64,000 nucleotides of DNA, taken from positions 1,178,001-1,242,000 of the forward strand of contig NZ_VFPL01000001.1 in assembly GCF_006716645.1 (NCBI RefSeq), given 5' to 3'. Positions 38,638 through 47,256 of the stretch are shown here, one piece after another. A program made the position numbers and the translations under genes. The notes under the pieces were generated by a model that was not told the origin of the DNA, ran no database searches, and worked only from the letters and a program-made list of their open reading frames with translations. Source of the stretch: Arcticibacter tournemirensis. Lineage in GTDB: Bacteria > Bacteroidota > Bacteroidia > Sphingobacteriales > Sphingobacteriaceae. Every line of letters starts with the position of its first letter. Position 1 is the stretch's first letter.

Positions 38638-38991
38638 TTAGCAATCGTTAGTAAACTTTTCTATTGTATCAATCAACTCCGATATATCAAACGGTTTCGA
38701 AATAATATCATCCGCACAAACATTCAGAAAGCTCTCAATATTCATATGCGTAGATAAAACGATCACCGAAATGTTTTCGAAGCTCTTAAGGGCCCGGCAT
38801 AATTCAGTTCCTTCCAGTGTTGGCTTTACGATATCGAGCAACACTACTTCCGGCTGTTCTTTTTCAATTCGTTCCAGTACTCCCCTTTCTGTCTGTGAAG
38901 TACTTACTTCGTAGCCTTCTGAACTAAGAATGTGAGATATAATCTGAAGAATGTCTTTATCTTTTTCAACAATTAACACCTTTTTCTTCAT
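38638..38991 (-). CDS. Stand-alone response-regulator receiver protein
   Basis: A 117-residue CheY-like receiver domain with no output domain. The phospho-acceptor is D53 (V-V-L-L-D-I), the conserved Ser/Thr is S80/T81 and the Lys is K99 (S-K-P-F). The first acidic patch is E9-K-D11, near normal. Start: the ATG at 38989-38991 precedes the canonical K-V-L-I-V; an upstream TTG was rejected. A TATATTTG box lies 3 bp upstream. There is no adjacent histidine kinase with an ATPase domain, so its kinase partner lies elsewhere. Confidence 0.86.
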   Translation of the reverse strand: MKKKVLIVEKDKDILQIISHILSSEGYEVSTSQTERGVLERIEKEQPEVVLLDIVKPTLEGTELCRALKSFENISVIVLSTHMNIESFLNVCADDIISKPFDISELIDTIEKFTNDC

Positions 38992-39270: not shown

Positions 39271-40770
39271 ATGATACTGACTAACATTGAGTTTTCTGAA
39301 TTTATAAAAGACTTCGAAACCACCCTTAAACAACTGTTCCGCGAGAAAGGAGACATTAACCAGCTTAGCTTAGAAAGAGGCTTGCCCCCTTCAATAATGA
39401 CTGAGATCATGTCTAAAACCCCGCTCGCCGTTGCTATCCCTGAACAGTATGGAGGGCGTGGCAGTATTGTGAAAGAATGCCTTGGCCTGTTAGCTGCAGC
39501 GTCTTACGAATCACTATCTCTTTCCCTGATATTTGGAATCAACATCGCCCTGTTCTTAGAGCCTGTGTCGAAATATGCGAATGAGGGAGTTAAGAAGGAT
39601 ATCTTCGATCGCTTTCTGAAAAATCAGAATATGGGCGGACTTATGATCACCGAGCCCGACTATGGGAGCGATGCCCTGAATATGAAAACCATTAACCGCG
39701 AAGTGGAAAATGGCTATCAGATAAAAGGAACAAAACACTGGCAGGGACTTACAGGTGCGGCCGATTACTGGCTTATAACTTCAAGAAAAGAAAACAGCAA
39801 TGGAGAGTTAGGTCGCGACATCGACTTCTTTATCTGCGATGTATCACAGCCTAAACAGCAGGTTGTTGTTGAAGAATACTTTGATAACCTGGGCCTCTAC
39901 ATGATTCCGTACGGAAGAAATATATTAGACCTGGAAGTTCCCCGTGAGTATAAATTAGAGCCTGAAACTACCGGCATAAAAATGATGCTTGATGTTTTAC
40001 ACAGAAGCAGAATGCAGTTTCCCGGAATGGGAATGGGGTTCATAAAGCGAATGCTCGACGAAGCCATAAACCACTGCAGCAATCGAATTGTAGGAACAGG
40101 CAACTTACTATCAATGGATCAGGTACAATTTCAGATATCGCGTATCCAGTCGGCCTTTACCATATGTTCTGCTATGTGTGCCAGGAGCAGTGAGATAAGC
40201 GGCATTGAACATAACTTAGCTGCCGAGGGCCTCGAAGCCAACAGCATGAAGGCCGTAGTGACCGACTTAATGCAGGAGTCTTCACAAATGTTACTTCAGC
40301 TTTCCGGTGCCAACGGGTATAAAATAACCCATATAGGTGGACGGGGAGTAATGGACAGCAGGCCGTTTCAGATATTTGAAGGCTCAAACGAAATGCTTTA
40401 TGCTCAAATCGCCGAGATGGTGACCCGACAGATGAAAAAGCAAAAACTATCGAACTTATTCGATTTTCTGAAAGACTTCAAACGTACTTCTGATGCATGC
40501 CTGTATTTTGAAAACGATTTGAACTTCAATATCGACAACAATATTCCGCAGCGTAAACTGGTTGATCTGGGTAAAATTATCTCCAGGATAATTTGTGCCG
40601 GATATGTAATTGACCTGGCAAATAAAGGATTCAGAGCAGATCTTGCAGATAACTGTATCACTTCAGTCAGACAGGAGGTATCGGCATTGGTATGCTCATT
40701 TAAGTTCAGCAATACCGTAAATATAATTGAAGACTATACCGGTAACAGTTCCTGGATGGAGTTTGTCTGA
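39271..40770 (+). CDS. Acyl-CoA dehydrogenase-family protein
   Basis: A 499-residue flavoprotein-type ACAD. The N-terminal helical domain leads to V-A-I-P-E-Q-Y-G-G-R-G (about 52-62). The middle beta domain has M-I-T-E-P-D-Y-G-S-D (about 127-136) and K-G-T-K-H-W (about 151-156). The C-terminal helical domain carries I-F-E-G-S-N-E-M near residue 370, where ACADs place the catalytic glutamate. It is about 100 residues longer than typical short-chain ACADs because of an extra C-terminal helical part. It oxidises an unknown acyl thioester with FAD. It is 3 bp upstream of an RsbQ-like hydrolase gene, an unusual neighbour. Confidence 0.86.
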   Translation: MILTNIEFSEFIKDFETTLKQLFREKGDINQLSLERGLPPSIMTEIMSKTPLAVAIPEQYGGRGSIVKECLGLLAAASYESLSLSLIFGINIALFLEPVSKYANEGVKKDIFDRFLKNQNMGGLMITEPDYGSDALNMKTINREVENGYQIKGTKHWQGLTGAADYWLITSRKENSNGELGRDIDFFICDVSQPKQQVVVEEYFDNLGLYMIPYGRNILDLEVPREYKLEPETTGIKMMLDVLHRSRMQFPGMGMGFIKRMLDEAINHCSNRIVGTGNLLSMDQVQFQISRIQSAFTICSAMCARSSEISGIEHNLAAEGLEANSMKAVVTDLMQESSQMLLQLSGANGYKITHIGGRGVMDSRPFQIFEGSNEMLYAQIAEMVTRQMKKQKLSNLFDFLKDFKRTSDACLYFENDLNFNIDNNIPQRKLVDLGKIISRIICAGYVIDLANKGFRADLADNCITSVRQEVSALVCSFKFSNTVNIIEDYTGNSSWMEFV

Positions 40771-40773
40771 TCC

Positions 40774-41574
40774 ATGATAGATATTTTAAAGAGGAATAAT
40801 GTCCGCCAGTTAGGCCAGGGCGATCAAACGATGGTCTTAGCCCATGGCTTTGGCTGCGATCAGAACGTTTGGCGGCATCTTATACATGCCTTTCAGCATA
40901 AATACAGGTTAGTTTTATTCGACTATGTCGGTGCCGGTCAATCCGACCTAAGTTCATATGAATCAGTTAGGTACAGTTCGCTGGACGGATATGCTCTCGA
41001 TATTCTCGAGATATTTGAAACGCTCGGTCTGAAAGATGTTATTTTTATCGGCCATTCAGTTAGCAGCATGATTGGGGCACGTGCGGCGATATCAAATCCT
41101 GCGTACTTCAGTAAACTGGTATTCGTTGCTCCATCCCCTTGTTATATTAATGACGACCAGTATACCGGCGGTATGGAAAGGCATGACATAGAGGGACTTT
41201 TTACCATGATGGACAACAATTATCTCGGCTGGTCAAGTGCCATGGCGCCTTTGATCATGGGAAATACCGACAAGCCTGAATTATCCGATGAGCTCGCCTC
41301 TAATTTCTGTGCTACAGATCCTGATATTGCCAGGGAGTTTGCCCGTGTCACTTTCCTCTCAGATAACAGGGAAGACCTCCGGAAACTAAAAGTTCCCAGT
41401 CTTACACTTCAATGTTCCAATGATATCCTTGCTCCTGTAGAAGTAGGATACTATATTCAGAAGAATACCTTTCAAAGTACTCTGGTTATCCTGGAGGCAA
41501 CCGGACATTGCCCGCACTTAAGCGCTCCGGATGAGACCATTACTGCAATCAGTACTTATATCAGCAGACATTAG
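40774..41574 (+). CDS. rsbQ: RsbQ-like alpha/beta hydrolase
   Basis: A 266-residue hydrolase strongly resembling Bacillus RsbQ along its whole length: A-H-G-F-G-C-D-Q-N-V-W (about 23-33), L-F-D-Y-V-G-A-G-Q-S-D-L and A-P-S-P-C-Y-I-N-D. N-F-C-A-T-D-P-D-I-A and G-H-C-P-H-L-S follow later. The catalytic triad is S95 (G-H-S-V-S), D217 and H245. In B. subtilis RsbQ is needed for the PAS-phosphatase RsbP to sense energy stress, probably by supplying or modifying a small hydrophobic ligand. The next gene, 10 bp downstream, encodes a PAS protein, so the pairing is conserved although the output domain differs. The related D14/KAI2 hormone receptors share this fold. Confidence 0.92.
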   Translation: MIDILKRNNVRQLGQGDQTMVLAHGFGCDQNVWRHLIHAFQHKYRLVLFDYVGAGQSDLSSYESVRYSSLDGYALDILEIFETLGLKDVIFIGHSVSSMIGARAAISNPAYFSKLVFVAPSPCYINDDQYTGGMERHDIEGLFTMMDNNYLGWSSAMAPLIMGNTDKPELSDELASNFCATDPDIAREFARVTFLSDNREDLRKLKVPSLTLQCSNDILAPVEVGYYIQKNTFQSTLVILEATGHCPHLSAPDETITAISTYISRH

Positions 41575-41584
41575 CCCGGCACAG

Positions 41585-42217
41585 ATGAATAAAAATAGTT
41601 CGGAAGAATCAGTAGACTTTACAAGCCTTTATCATAGAGCTCCTTGCGGACTTCTGACCTATGCTATCAACGGGTCTGTTATCCAGGCTAATAAAACGCT
41701 CCTCGAATGGTTAAACATAACCCATGAGGAGATAGTCAATAAAACATTTACAGATCTTCTCGATAGGGGCGGTCAACTATATTATCAGCTTTTTGTATAT
41801 CCCATGCTCGTGTTGCAAAAAGAGGTTAAAGAAATTCATCTGGATATACGATCGGCCTCCGCCGCATTTCCCTGCTTCTTTAGTGCTTCGGCAGATAGCG
41901 ACAATGACGGGCAGACGACCCTTATCCATGCAATTGTCTTTAAGGTTGCGCACCGGAAGAAATACGAAGATGAACTTCTCAGGAAAAAGACGGCAGCTGA
42001 GAAAGAAAACCAGCAAAAAGCTCAAACTTTACAAGAAGTAGCCTTCTATCAGTCGCATTTAGTGCGGGCACCTCTCGCAAACATCCTGGGGCTGGCCGAT
42101 CTGCTTACAATGTATAATTCAGAAGACGACATCCAGGATATCATTGTCCTCTTAAAGGAAAGCGCTGCTCAGCTTGATACAGTCATAAAAAAAATAGTTG
42201 GCAAAGCGAACTCATAG
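41585..42217 (+). CDS. PAS protein with histidine phosphoacceptor-like C-terminus, no kinase domain
   Basis: A 210-residue protein. The N-terminal PAS domain covers about residues 10-115 (Y-H-R-A-P-C-G-L-L-T-Y, then I-Q-A-N-K-T-L-L-E-W-L). A coiled coil at about 120-155 (K-Y-E-D-E-L-L-R-K-K-T-A-A-E-K-E-N) follows. The C-terminus holds S-H-L-V-R-A-P-L-A-N-I-L-G-L (about 163-176), like the H-box of histidine kinases. The chain stops about 35 residues later, so the HATPase domain is absent. The ATG at 41585 was chosen because the frame upstream overlaps the hydrolase gene. It is predicted to receive a signal from the RsbQ-like protein; the output partner is unknown. Confidence 0.8.
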   Translation: MNKNSSEESVDFTSLYHRAPCGLLTYAINGSVIQANKTLLEWLNITHEEIVNKTFTDLLDRGGQLYYQLFVYPMLVLQKEVKEIHLDIRSASAAFPCFFSASADSDNDGQTTLIHAIVFKVAHRKKYEDELLRKKTAAEKENQQKAQTLQEVAFYQSHLVRAPLANILGLADLLTMYNSEDDIQDIIVLLKESAAQLDTVIKKIVGKANS

Positions 42218-42755: not shown

Positions 42756-43292
42756 ATGGCTGAAATACAAAAACCAGAACATTCCCCTTCAACAAGGGAA
42801 GAAGCCCTGATCGCTCTGTATAAAAGTACATTTCCGTTGGTGGCCCGTTTTGTAAGCAAACGGGGCGGATCATTGGAGCAGGCAAAAGATATCTTTCAGG
42901 ACGCTTTAGTGGCATGGTACGAAAAATCCACAGAATCCGGCGGTGTGCCAGTGTATTCTGAAAGGGGCTATATATTTGGAATTGCAAAACGATTATGGTA
43001 CAGGAGGTTTGCTGAGGAATCCCTTTCTCTGCCCTTGGAAGTTGATGTGGAAGACATAACCGATCAACACCCCTCATCGTCAAGGTTGCTGAATGTATTG
43101 GAGAATGCAGGCAGAAAATGCCTGGACCTTTTGAAGTCCTTTTATTACGACAAATTGTCGATGGCTGAATTAAAAGTTCAATTTGGTTTCAGCAGCAGCC
43201 ATTCAGCTACAGTGCAGAAATATAAGTGTCTTGAAAAAGTAAGAGAGACCGTAAAAGAAAAATCGTTGAGCTATGAGGACTTCCTTGAATGA
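42756..43292 (+). CDS. ECF-type RNA polymerase sigma factor
   Basis: A 178-residue sigma-70-family protein. Region 2 (about 15-85) has L-V-A-R-F-V-S-K-R-G-G-S-L-E-Q-A-K-D-I-F-Q-D-A, typical of ECF sigma factors. Region 4 (about 115-170) has A-E-L-K-V-Q-F-G-F-S-S-S-H-S-A-T-V-Q-K-Y-K-C-L-E, the DNA-recognition HTH. It should direct polymerase to a specific stress regulon. The next gene overlaps by 20 bp and may encode its regulator. No target promoter can be read from the window. Confidence 0.88.
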   Translation: MAEIQKPEHSPSTREEALIALYKSTFPLVARFVSKRGGSLEQAKDIFQDALVAWYEKSTESGGVPVYSERGYIFGIAKRLWYRRFAEESLSLPLEVDVEDITDQHPSSSRLLNVLENAGRKCLDLLKSFYYDKLSMAELKVQFGFSSSHSATVQKYKCLEKVRETVKEKSLSYEDFLE

Positions 43293-43545
43293 AATTGAGT
43301 ATATAGAACGACACCTTGAAGGAACGCTGAATGGCGAAGAGGAACTGCTGTTCCAGGTCAACGCTATTCTCAACAAAGAACTCGCGGCCAACGTGCAATG
43401 GCAACAGAAAACCCTTCAGCTCGTCCACGCTTATGGACGGGAGCAGTTGAAGCAAGAGATCCACGCAGTGCACCAGAAGCTGTTCACACAGCGCGAACAT
43501 CTCAGTTTCCGTCAAAAAATACTGGCTTTTTTCGCGCACAGTTAA
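43273..43545 (+). CDS. Small soluble protein overlapping the sigma gene, possible anti-sigma-like factor
   Basis: A 90-residue helical, charged protein starting M-R-T-S-L-N-E-I-E-Y-I-E-R-H-L-E-G-T-L. The first 45 residues resemble the N-terminal helices of anti-sigma factors (I-E-x-H-L-x-G-x-L-x-x-x-E-x-x-x-F). The C-terminal transmembrane helix and periplasmic part of typical Bacteroidota FecR-like anti-sigma proteins are absent, as is an HxxxCxxC zinc motif. Overlap with the sigma gene (20 bp) implies coupled translation. The role as a sigma regulator is inferred from position and shape. Confidence 0.6.
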   Translation: MRTSLNEIEYIERHLEGTLNGEEELLFQVNAILNKELAANVQWQQKTLQLVHAYGREQLKQEIHAVHQKLFTQREHLSFRQKILAFFAHS

Positions 43546-43632
43546 TTCAATAAATCTTAAGAGTGATAAACGGGTTCGGCTGCTTTTCAGCGGCAGGGAA
43601 AAGCTATGCCCGATCCAAAAACGAAAAATAAA

Positions 43633-44334
43633 ATGAAAACAGAAAAAGAAGAATTCAGAAACTATGCAGTAAAACATCAGGGCATCAATGGGCTTACGGT
43701 CGACAGTTTCATGTCCGGGATTGAAAAGTCAGTTCTTCCTGTGGCTATGACCCCATATATTATTGAAGAGCGACAGCTGAATGTCGCACAGATGGATGTC
43801 TTTTCACGCCTGATGATGGACCGCATCATCTTTCTTGGTGACGCTATCGACGACCGTATCGCTAATGTGATCCAGGCGCAGCTTCTGTTCCTTCAATCAG
43901 CTGATGCAAAAAGGGATATCCAGATCTACATAAATTGTCCCGGGGGAGTCGTTTACGCAGGTCTTGGCATTTATGATACCATGCAATATATCAGTCCCGA
44001 TGTGGCAACGATATGCACCGGCACAGCCCTTTCCATGGCTTCCGTATTGCTCTGTGCGGGTGCTCCGGGAAAACGTGCAGCTCTTGCTCATTCGAGGGTG
44101 ATGATCCATCAGCCATTAGGCGGCGTGCAGGGACAGGCCTCCGATATCGAAATTACCGCCCGCGAGGTCTTGAAACTGAAGAGGGAACTGTATCAAATAA
44201 TAGCCGACCACAGCGGTCAGGACTATCAAAAGATACATGACGCCGCCGACCGCGACCATTGGATGATCGCAGCAGAAGCCAAAGAGTTTGGGATGATCGA
44301 CGAAGTGCTCGGAGCCGATACAGAATCGGCCTGA
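43633..44334 (+). CDS. clpP: ATP-dependent Clp protease proteolytic subunit
   Basis: A 233-residue ClpP. The catalytic triad is visible: Ser in G-T-A-L-S-M-A-S (residue 134), His in M-I-H-Q-P (159), and a downstream Asp. The handle and surface motifs E-E-R-Q-L-N-V-A-Q-M-D-V-F and I-Y-I-N-C-P-G-G-V are typical of Bacteroidota ClpP. The ATG at 43633 fits family N-termini (E-E-F-R-N-Y-A-V-K-H-Q-G-I) better than the in-frame ATG at 43606. It forms tetradecamers with ClpX/ClpA-type unfoldases; none is encoded nearby. It lies about 90 bp after the sigma pair, so the three may form one unit. Confidence 0.96.
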   Translation: MKTEKEEFRNYAVKHQGINGLTVDSFMSGIEKSVLPVAMTPYIIEERQLNVAQMDVFSRLMMDRIIFLGDAIDDRIANVIQAQLLFLQSADAKRDIQIYINCPGGVVYAGLGIYDTMQYISPDVATICTGTALSMASVLLCAGAPGKRAALAHSRVMIHQPLGGVQGQASDIEITAREVLKLKRELYQIIADHSGQDYQKIHDAADRDHWMIAAEAKEFGMIDEVLGADTESA

Positions 44335-45567: not shown

Positions 45568-45696
45568 CGTACAGGTACTTTTAATGTCAGTGCTGCTTTA
45601 TCACAGAACTTTTCGGGCACTTGTCCGTATTAAATATTATGGGTATTTTAGATTTACCAAGGTAATGAAACCGAATCACGCTTTAATCTGATTATG

Positions 45697-47256
45697 ATGG
45701 AGTTTGATGTGAACTTACGATCAGATCTCGAACATCTCGAGAAGAATGTGTTTGAGTTGAACGCCAAAAAAGACGTTTCAATCCGTACGATCCTGAACTT
45801 TTACACAAAAGGCATCGAACGCATTTTTCCGGATATGCAATGTTCTATCATGCAGGTTAAGCGAAATCGTCTGTTCAACTGGGCATCTTCTTCACTGCCC
45901 GAAGCCTTCTCTAAGGCAATAGAAGGGCTTGAAATAGGAAGCGAAGTTGGTTCATGCGGAACAGCCGCTTATCTTAAGGAGCAGGTCATAGTAACCGACA
46001 TTAGAACAGACTACAGGTGGGCGGCTTTCAGCAATGTAGCCTTACAGTACGGCTTACAGGCCTGCTGGTCTTATCCGATTATAAACAGCAGGGGCGAAGT
46101 AATGGCAACATTTGCTATTTACTACCACGAACCTAAAGAGCCTAATGAAGAGGAGCTCCATATCATCACGCGGGCCGCATCGCTGTTGCAGGTTATCCTC
46201 GAAAACAGGCAGTATTCTGAGACACTGGAGGAAACCACCCTTTTAATGACCCAGGGTCAGGAACTCGCCCACTTCGGTAACTGGCTCTGGAATATCCCCG
46301 AAGATGAAGTTACCTGGTCTGATTCTTTGTATACCATCTACGGGCAAAACAAACACAGCTTTAAAGCAACATTTGAAGGATACCTTGAGGTACTGCATCC
46401 TAATGATTATGAAATGGTTAAAAGCATCATTCAGAATGTTCTGATAACCGGCGAAGATTGCGAGTTTGAGGAGCGAATAATCCGGCCCTCCGGAGAAGTG
46501 AGATATCTTAAGTCCTGGGGAAAGTTGAAGTACGACGAGAAAGGGCAACCTCTCAAGATGATCCGAGCTTGTCTTGACATTACAGAAAGCAAAAAAATAC
46601 AGCAAAAATTATTAGCGAGCGAGTCAAATCTGCGGCATCTGGTAGAGCGCTATACGTACGTAAATAAAGCCACAAACGACGCTATATACGACTGGGATAT
46701 TCAATCAGACCTGATTCAGTGGGGCGACTCATTTTTCAGGTTATTTGGATACAAGACGGACGACGAACACAGTTCCATCAAAAAGTGGTTTGAAAAAGTG
46801 CATCACGATGATGTAATCATGGTTGAAAAAAGCTTCAATGACGCTTTAGAGAATCCTGCTGTACACAACTGGAATGAAGAGTACAGAATGAAAAGATCCG
46901 ATGGAAGTTACGTATTCATAGAAGAAAACGGATATATCTTAAGAAATAATGAAGGTAGAGCCATACGAATGATCGGCGTGTTAAGGGATGTGTCAGAACG
47001 TAAAGCCGATTTTCAGAAACATCTTGATTACATAAAAACAATTGAACAACATATTCTTAGGTTGCGCGATATAGCCTGGACACAGTCACATCTCGTCCGT
47101 GCACCGTTAGCGCGTATCATGGGGATTGTGCCTTTGCTTACCGATCATAAAACCGATGATGGAACAAAAGAAACACTCATGTCTTACCTTTCAATATCGG
47201 CCGCTGAACTGGACGGGATCATAAAGGAAATTATAAACAAGAGCCAGATAGAATAA
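45697..47256 (+). CDS. GAF-PAS-PAS sensor with phosphoacceptor-like C-terminus, no kinase domain
   Basis: A 519-residue cytoplasmic sensor. The GAF domain spans about residues 20-170 (M-Q-C-S-I-M-Q-V, E-V-G-S-C-G-T-A-A-Y, V-T-D-I-R-T-D). PAS1 is at about 180-300 (A-H-F-G-N-W-L-W-N-I, then L-D-I-T-E-S-K-K), and PAS2 at about 315-440 (D-A-I-Y-D-W-D-I-Q, L-R-D-V-S-E-R-K). The end is S-H-L-V-R-A-P-L-A-R-I-M-G-I-V-P-L-L (about 467-484) plus 35 residues; the HATPase domain is missing. A second in-frame ATG (45697) was chosen over 45694. Domain order matches hybrid kinases cut after the H-box helix pair. The end of the gene is not a frameshift, since the C-terminus is like that of the 41585 protein. 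Confidence 0.85.
   Translation: MEFDVNLRSDLEHLEKNVFELNAKKDVSIRTILNFYTKGIERIFPDMQCSIMQVKRNRLFNWASSSLPEAFSKAIEGLEIGSEVGSCGTAAYLKEQVIVTDIRTDYRWAAFSNVALQYGLQACWSYPIINSRGEVMATFAIYYHEPKEPNEEELHIITRAASLLQVILENRQYSETLEETTLLMTQGQELAHFGNWLWNIPEDEVTWSDSLYTIYGQNKHSFKATFEGYLEVLHPNDYEMVKSIIQNVLITGEDCEFEERIIRPSGEVRYLKSWGKLKYDEKGQPLKMIRACLDITESKKIQQKLLASESNLRHLVERYTYVNKATNDAIYDWDIQSDLIQWGDSFFRLFGYKTDDEHSSIKKWFEKVHHDDVIMVEKSFNDALENPAVHNWNEEYRMKRSDGSYVFIEENGYILRNNEGRAIRMIGVLRDVSERKADFQKHLDYIKTIEQHILRLRDIAWTQSHLVRAPLARIMGIVPLLTDHKTDDGTKETLMSYLSISAAELDGIIKEIINKSQIE

Follow-up and report, generated by a model that had tools for sequence, protein, structure and literature searches.

In Arcticibacter tournemirensis (Bacteroidota; Sphingobacteriaceae), a gene for an RsbQ-type hydrolase is followed by a gene for a PAS protein that ends in a DHp hairpin, as found in histidine kinases, with no ATPase domain behind it. 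Both genes lie in a stretch of 64,000 nucleotides (contig NZ_VFPL01000001.1, positions 1,178,001 to 1,242,000, forward strand), referred to below as the window and used for all plain coordinates. The pair recurs in related Bacteroidota, and its bare DHp belongs to a wider class of ATPase-less proteins in which the phosphoacceptor-like histidine is retained. The most likely interpretation is that the PAS protein, gated by RsbQ, takes part in histidine phosphotransfer or modulates a kinase, with partners that are encoded elsewhere. The second protein would probably pass on or modulate phosphate signals and not make them. That its output is gated phosphotransfer through His158, under an RsbQ-PAS sensing module, is argued by analogy and is a proposal about which belief and doubt are evenly balanced.

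The hydrolase and its PAS partner

The features of the pair are as follows.

40774..41574, + strand: RsbQ-type alpha/beta hydrolase, 266 aa (PDB sequence match, Pfam, triad alignment)
41056-41058, 41422-41424 and 41506-41508, + strand: codons of the hydrolase triad S95, D217 and H245, respectively
41585..42217 (longer open reading frame from 41531), + strand: PAS-helix-DHp protein, 210 aa, without ATPase domain
41618..41944, + strand: RsbP-type PAS domain, residues 12-120 (signature residues and model)
41954..42115, + strand: continuous signalling helix and H-box helix alpha-1, residues 124-177 (AlphaFold2 model)
42056..42058, + strand: codon of His158, the phosphoacceptor-like His in QSHLVRAPLANILGL (His kept in 72/72 DHp frames)
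42125..42211, + strand: DHp helix alpha-2, residues 181-209, end of the protein (AlphaFold2 model)

A sequence-only reading had placed the hydrolase close to Bacillus RsbQ with the triad S95, D217 and H245, and this placement was borne out. The top PDB match is RsbQ (1wom, E 3e-92), with 135 of 267 aligned columns identical (51%), followed by 3qvm (Olei00960) and then by the plant KAI2/D14 receptors. All three residues line up with the S, D and H of RsbQ, and the triad is present in each of the 189 RsbQ-like loci examined. At the level of sequence, the hydrolase is confirmed as RsbQ type with an intact triad. The downstream open reading frame as listed starts at 41531 and overlaps the hydrolase gene by 44 nt; the ATG at 41585, 10 nt past the hydrolase stop, appears to be the better start because it fits the homologues better.

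The PAS domain is the most N-terminal domain of its protein, and its gene lies directly downstream of the hydrolase gene. At the residues that mark RsbQ-linked PAS domains (C10, L13, L48, Q53, F55, C56, Y59, E72 and P86), mapped by the published spacing and not by alignment to the RsbP sequence, the window protein has C, L, L, Q, Y, Y, F, E and P, at that spacing except for a shift of one residue at P86 (PMC3183031). The Y, Y and F at the F55, C56 and Y59 columns, the first of them Y66 of the protein, also occur in other RsbQ-linked rows. No DIT motif is present at the end of the PAS domain, where the protein reads FKVAHRKKYE.

An AlphaFold2 model was built from an alignment of 58 protein pieces from related loci, of which 54 are PAS pieces and the other 4 entire bare-DHp proteins. 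It has a mean pLDDT of 93.4 and a pTM of 0.69, and comprises a PAS fold, a helix from 124 to 177 with His158, a helix from 181 to 209, and then the end of the protein. In the model, the link between PAS and output is a single long predicted helix. Foldseek aligns LOV-histidine kinases of the PDB to almost the entire chain (202-206 columns, E ~1e-8), the top matches being 8a3u and 4gcz (203-206 columns); a TM-score of ~0.5 with a root-mean-square deviation of 8-9 Å means that the domains agree with those of the LOV-histidine kinases but that their relative placement does not. Pfam gives weak matches to PAS_9 (E 1.3e-4) and HisKA (E 7.2e-4, residues 175-222 of the 228-aa open reading frame), both below cut-offs, and no match to a HATPase domain. 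As had been proposed from the sequence, the protein ends in a kinase-like phosphoacceptor region and lacks an ATPase; within the terms of a predicted fold, this region is confirmed as a HisKA/DHp hairpin carrying His158. A search of the whole genome for HATPase_c returned 76 matches, the nearest on the two sides being at C1:1158175 and C1:1363995, ~61 and 144 kb away, which rules out a separate ATPase gene near the pair. With no ATPase on its DHp, the protein should be unable to phosphorylate itself. In its H-box, SHLVRAPL, the residue after the His is not acidic, unlike that of a sensor histidine kinase.

Conservation of the pair

RsbQ-like hydrolases (E <= 1e-60) were found in 70 of 301 family genomes and in 21 of 395 genomes across the phylum, the two sets overlapping. 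The 189 loci compared comprise 88 from the family (window included), 80 named loci (80 of 568) and 21 from the phylum, with flanks of 1.5 kb for the phylum loci and about 5 kb or less for the others; some genomes are repeated under two sources (L133 = L047 and L154 = L066 among the bare DHps, others among the kinases). The next gene encodes a PAS-histidine kinase at 103 loci, a bare DHp at 19 and another PAS protein at 10, and at 57 none was found by a home-made PAS model with a 400-nt limit and simple calling of open reading frames, so that some partners may have escaped notice, particularly in high-GC genomes. For the 88 family loci the corresponding counts are 39, 15 (PAS with bare DHp), 1 and 33. 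The kinase and bare-DHp classes take in the second-clade rows L094-L112, to which the PAS model gave no score; L099, L102 and L108, which are bare-DHp proteins, do have PAS domains by Pfam. The single family gene counted as another PAS protein is cut by a run of N, and a bare DHp is seen there (L287). Five of the ten proteins in that class were run through Pfam: L171 and L209 are SpoIIE-type phosphatases, L173 is an HWE kinase, and L164 and L183 are without clear class. Subtracting the repeats L133 and L154 from the 19 rows and adding L090/L287 leaves about 18 distinct RsbQ-linked bare-DHp loci. L133, from Pararcticibacter amylolyticus, is a bare-DHp locus of the same genus.

A hydrolase tree was made from 114 of the 180 distinct hydrolases, leaving out even-numbered named kinase loci and every PAS-less locus apart from ten of the family. 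In the window's clade all seven loci have a bare-DHp partner (SH-aLRT support 99), and placing the bare DHp on this 'quick' tree takes 4 changes, of which no fewer than 3 are forced by starred branches. Within the clade the protein ends 52 residues past the His in six loci and 57 in one. A kinase gene broken by a recent truncation in this genome would likewise leave no ATPase past the DHp, but the end point common to related loci refutes so recent a loss, and the 76 HATPase matches elsewhere in the genome indicate that the search works; this explanation can be given almost no weight.

The conserved neighbourhood on which the sequence-only reading had staked the pair was found in related Bacteroidota, in the seven clade members and at the ~18 distinct loci. 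Three + strand genes stand head to tail in the window, the hydrolase and PAS genes being preceded by a further one, with gaps of 3 nt and 10 nt.

39271..40770, + strand: acyl-CoA dehydrogenase-like gene, 3 nt 5' of the hydrolase gene

The hydrolase could accordingly be a common esterase whose gene belongs to an acyl-CoA dehydrogenase operon, with the PAS gene as an independent neighbour, which would also suit the 57 of 189 loci with no PAS partner found. However, the dehydrogenase has a relative at none of the 188 other loci as fetched, whereas the hydrolase-PAS pair recurs in other genomes and is for that reason not a chance arrangement. The PAS domain also bears the RsbQ-partner signature, and the ten PAS-less family hydrolases in the tree (the first ten of 33, ordered by similarity and not random) fall in one separate clade. 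Chance adjacency is thus very unlikely. That clade has a support of 100 and a long branch; family RsbQ-like hydrolases with no PAS partner found stand among rows L080-L092, and such proteins have perhaps switched partner or job.

A class of ATPase-less DHp proteins

A DHp profile built from 14 RsbQ-linked bare DHps gave 14 matches in the organism's own genome, six of which end 52-72 residues past the His without an ATPase. These six include the pair's protein and a second one encoded in the window at 45694-47256 (+), 3.5 kb from the first. The second protein has a GAF-PAS-PAS-DHp layout with the box SHLVRAPLA, and one of its two PAS domains ends in DIT, in contrast to the PAS domain of the pair. 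At E <= 1e-8 the profile matched 27 of 148 phylum genomes, and at E <= 1e-10 it matched 69 of 121 family genomes, some matches in both sets being full kinases. The bare DHp class looks common in the family.

The wider class was sampled as 72 distinct frames in the top-scoring loci, 60 without an ATPase and 12 with one. The His is retained in all 72, including all 60 ATPase-less frames, and in the latter the residue after it varies among 11 letters: the histidine is conserved and its neighbours are relaxed. In kinases, an acidic residue at +1 serves autophosphorylation, and a T or N at +4 serves phosphatase activity. Across the wider class, an acid at +1 is present in 8/60 ATPase-less frames (E in all 8) versus 7/12 frames with an ATPase (Fisher p 0.002), and T or N at +4 in 0/60 versus 4/12 (p 0.0005). 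Among RsbQ-linked rows, the His is followed by L, M or V in 19/19 bare DHps and by E or D in the 72/72 kinases with a box (31 further kinase rows had no box found), and position +4 holds A, K or R in 19/19 bare DHps versus T or N in 66/72 kinases. A strict coupling of ATPase loss to the absence of an acid at +1 is seen in the RsbQ-linked rows (19/19) and fails in the class, given the E in 8/60.

The relaxed +1 and +4 positions, together with a Pfam HisKA match under the cut-off, would suit a DHp that only dimerises or docks, the true output being another protein that binds the PAS domain or the helix and the His having no chemical role. The constancy of the His in 60 of 60 ATPase-less frames beside a next residue of 11 letters, in a sample biased to the model, argues against such a docking cap, which we regard as unlikely.

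Candidate partners and the mode of action

The sequence-only reading had named the receiver at 38638-38991 as a possible target of phosphotransfer. This part found no support, since the receiver is not conserved beside the pair. A short receiver is present in the fetched stretch (~5 kb per side) of 2/19 RsbQ-linked bare-DHp rows (the window itself and L108, opposite strand, 2 kb away) and of 21/103 full-kinase loci. By BLAST, a relative of the window receiver adjoins only one of 16 other bare-DHp loci, L108, and the receiver was set aside as cognate partner. Apart from this receiver, what the surroundings of the 16 loci share with the window neighbourhood is the pair and related DHp/PAS stretches. 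The comparison of receiver linkage that gave 10/60 versus 1/57 (p 0.009) mixes unlike thresholds and flanks, its sole background case lies on the opposite strand, and the rows are related.

Receivers do flank some relatives of the bare DHp. Loci L251, L254 and L260 hold receiver, receiver-PAS-HisKA and receiver genes on one strand; L252 has a same-strand row of receiver, receiver-DHp and receiver genes, and L250 has the first two genes of such a row. The rows are listed as follows.

L250:715-1695, +; L251:706-1764, +; L254:724-1710, +; L260:709-1728, +; L252:1492-2124, -: single-domain receiver / receiver-(PAS)-DHp, no ATPase / single-domain receiver (L250, first two genes)

By Pfam, each of the five proteins has its internal receiver, and the separate receivers of L251, L252, L254 and L260 are confirmed as well; HisKA is matched in four of the five (above cut-off in L250, L251 and L260), and HATPase in none. 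Judged from their domains, these Bacteroidota rows look like kinase-free phosphorelay nodes. Two orphan single-domain receivers of the organism's own genome, C1:575687-576040 (+) and C1:1177215-1177556 (-), are 37 and 32% identical to the receiver downstream in L255, which follows a bare DHp gene; the second lies just left of the window. Both are candidate partners of the bare DHp.

By analogy with Bacillus subtilis RsbQP, the hydrolase would bind or turn over a small molecule and dock on F-alpha, the PAS-domain helix at residues 64-73. The PAS domain would then transmit the change through the long helix into the four-helix bundle formed by the C-terminal DHps of a presumed dimer, where His158 may accept a phosphoryl group from, or donate it to, receivers or kinases encoded elsewhere, as in Spo0B, ChpT and PhyT. 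Phosphotransfer is favoured because the His is retained with relaxed neighbours and because there are receiver-flanked relatives.

Several points weigh against phosphotransfer. The DHp profile was trained on rows chosen by an H..R.P motif and the frames are those of the top-scoring loci, so that the sample favours matches keeping the H. A receiver stands beside 0/8 RsbQ-linked bare DHps (1.5 kb flanks, same strand) and 2/19 in larger stretches. For the wider class, a same-strand short receiver lies within 1.5 kb flanks of 10/60 bare DHps versus 2/12 full kinases, equal rates by which receiver linkage does not set bare DHps apart. A degenerate ATPase domain is retained in Spo0B and ChpT. PhyT has one too (PMC5898713), and the window protein has none. 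The contrast with RsbQ-free PAS domains is that drawn in PMC3183031. Finally, the solved-chain match nearest to the DHp is the GacS-RetS pair, a precedent for heterodimer control and not for transfer.

This last point bears on a further reading, in which the partner of the bare DHp is the DHp of a complete histidine kinase encoded elsewhere, in the style of RetS and GacS. Controlled by RsbQ-PAS, the bare DHp would turn this kinase on or off, and His158 would be either a relic or phosphorylated in trans by the ATPase of the partner. Among solved chains the DHp profile best matches the GacS DHp 7n0e_A (E 5.8e-7), 7z8n (2.5e-5) and RetS (E 0.003), and RetS is reported to swap the GacS DHp homodimer interface for a heterodimer (PMC12148439). 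The organism's own genome holds complete kinases with similar boxes (SHNLRVPIANILG, SHNLRSPVANILG). Because of the GacS/RetS match and the lack of a conserved linked receiver beside RsbQ-type bare DHps, a RetS-like modulator is a possible alternative. On the other side, RetS is a large sensor and not a bare DHp, HisKA domains are generally alike, and the receiver-flanked relatives point to phosphotransfer; kinase modulation is accordingly a possibility on the doubtful side.

Relation to known systems

In the available text of Nadezhdin et al. 2011, 45 RsbQ-PAS pairs are described, with phosphatase (PPM), kinase or diguanylate cyclase outputs; F55A in the RsbP PAS domain inhibited interaction with RsbQ, the signal read is stated as not known, and the word 'Bacteroidetes' is absent from the main text (PMC3183031). 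The window pair shares with B. subtilis RsbQ-RsbP the hydrolase gene directly upstream of the PAS gene, the triad, the class-marking residues, the most N-terminal PAS domain, the helical link to the output and the lack of a DIT motif, as far as these are given there. It differs in ending in a DHp without ATPase, where the published pairs have PPM, full histidine kinase or GGDEF outputs. The claim of a new output, made from the sequence alone, thus holds in part: a bare DHp is not in the list as available, but outputs other than PP2C were already published, so only the bare-DHp type is an addition.

Archaeal proteins described in 2018 as 'HisKA, no HATPase' also join PAS/GAF sensors to a C-terminal HisKA-like domain with a conserved His and no HATPase; in the sections available, their authors suggest phosphoacceptor, transfer or phosphatase roles, include REC-PAS/GAF-HisKA forms, describe the REC-HisKA class as without experimental study, and do not mention an RsbQ partner (PMC5847659). 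Spo0B, ChpT and PhyT resemble the window protein as kinase-derived DHp-type proteins with a phosphorylatable His that move phosphoryl groups between receivers (PMC5898713), but the window protein stops after the DHp without any remnant of an ATPase, and no receiver is conserved beside its gene. The RetS-GacS heterodimer (PMC12148439, PDB 7n0e) is the nearest by DHp profile, but RetS is a full sensor protein with no hydrolase partner. Plant KAI2/D14 belong to the same hydrolase family by sequence (7k2z, E 2.7e-60; 4ih4, E 8.3e-55). Their partners are F-box and SMXL proteins, not PAS proteins. The new part here is the bare-DHp output, RsbQ-PAS with varied outputs and archaeal ATPase-less HisKA being already in print; in the open-licence literature, no report was found of RsbQ-linked DHp-only proteins or of this class in Bacteroidota.

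Other genes around the pair

The acyl-CoA dehydrogenase-like gene (39271-40770, +) is perhaps co-transcribed with the hydrolase at this locus, and its product extends ~110 residues past the Pfam C-terminal domain; a relative was absent from the other 188 loci as fetched, and the gene was rejected as a system component. Downstream of the pair lies a sigma factor gene.

42756-43292, + strand: ECF-type sigma factor, Sigma-70 region 2

It opens a row (42756-44334, +) that continues with a 90-aa open reading frame overlapping its end and a ClpP-like protease gene. The row has no BLAST relatives beside the other loci, and the sigma factor was set aside as a sigma-B-like target, having no BLAST relative there. 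At L047, a FecI-like sigma gene, by reading, lies ~2 kb downstream in an apparent FecI/FecR cluster. At ~9764-38543 the window holds what its list of open reading frames suggests to be a large polysaccharide-type cluster, with glycosyltransferase-like and NDP-sugar enzyme-like frames.

Implications

The plant cousins KAI2 and D14 are hormone receptors, and the signal of RsbQ-PAS is still to be found. A two-gene system of 266 and 210 aa is a convenient one in which to find such a ligand and to study the control of a PAS protein by a hydrolase. Bare DHps as a class raise the testable question of how signalling proceeds without an attached ATPase. A broader view, put forward tentatively and with doubt outweighing belief, is that Bacteroidota have many ATP-free sensors acting as gates on phosphate flow where it is transferred. 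In each, an input domain (PAS, GAF or receiver) would open or close a bare DHp, which would carry phosphoryl groups from one single-domain receiver to another, and RsbQ-type hydrolases would have joined such proteins several times as ligand readers. If true, a KAI2-like hydrolase would control a branch of a phosphorelay, not a kinase.
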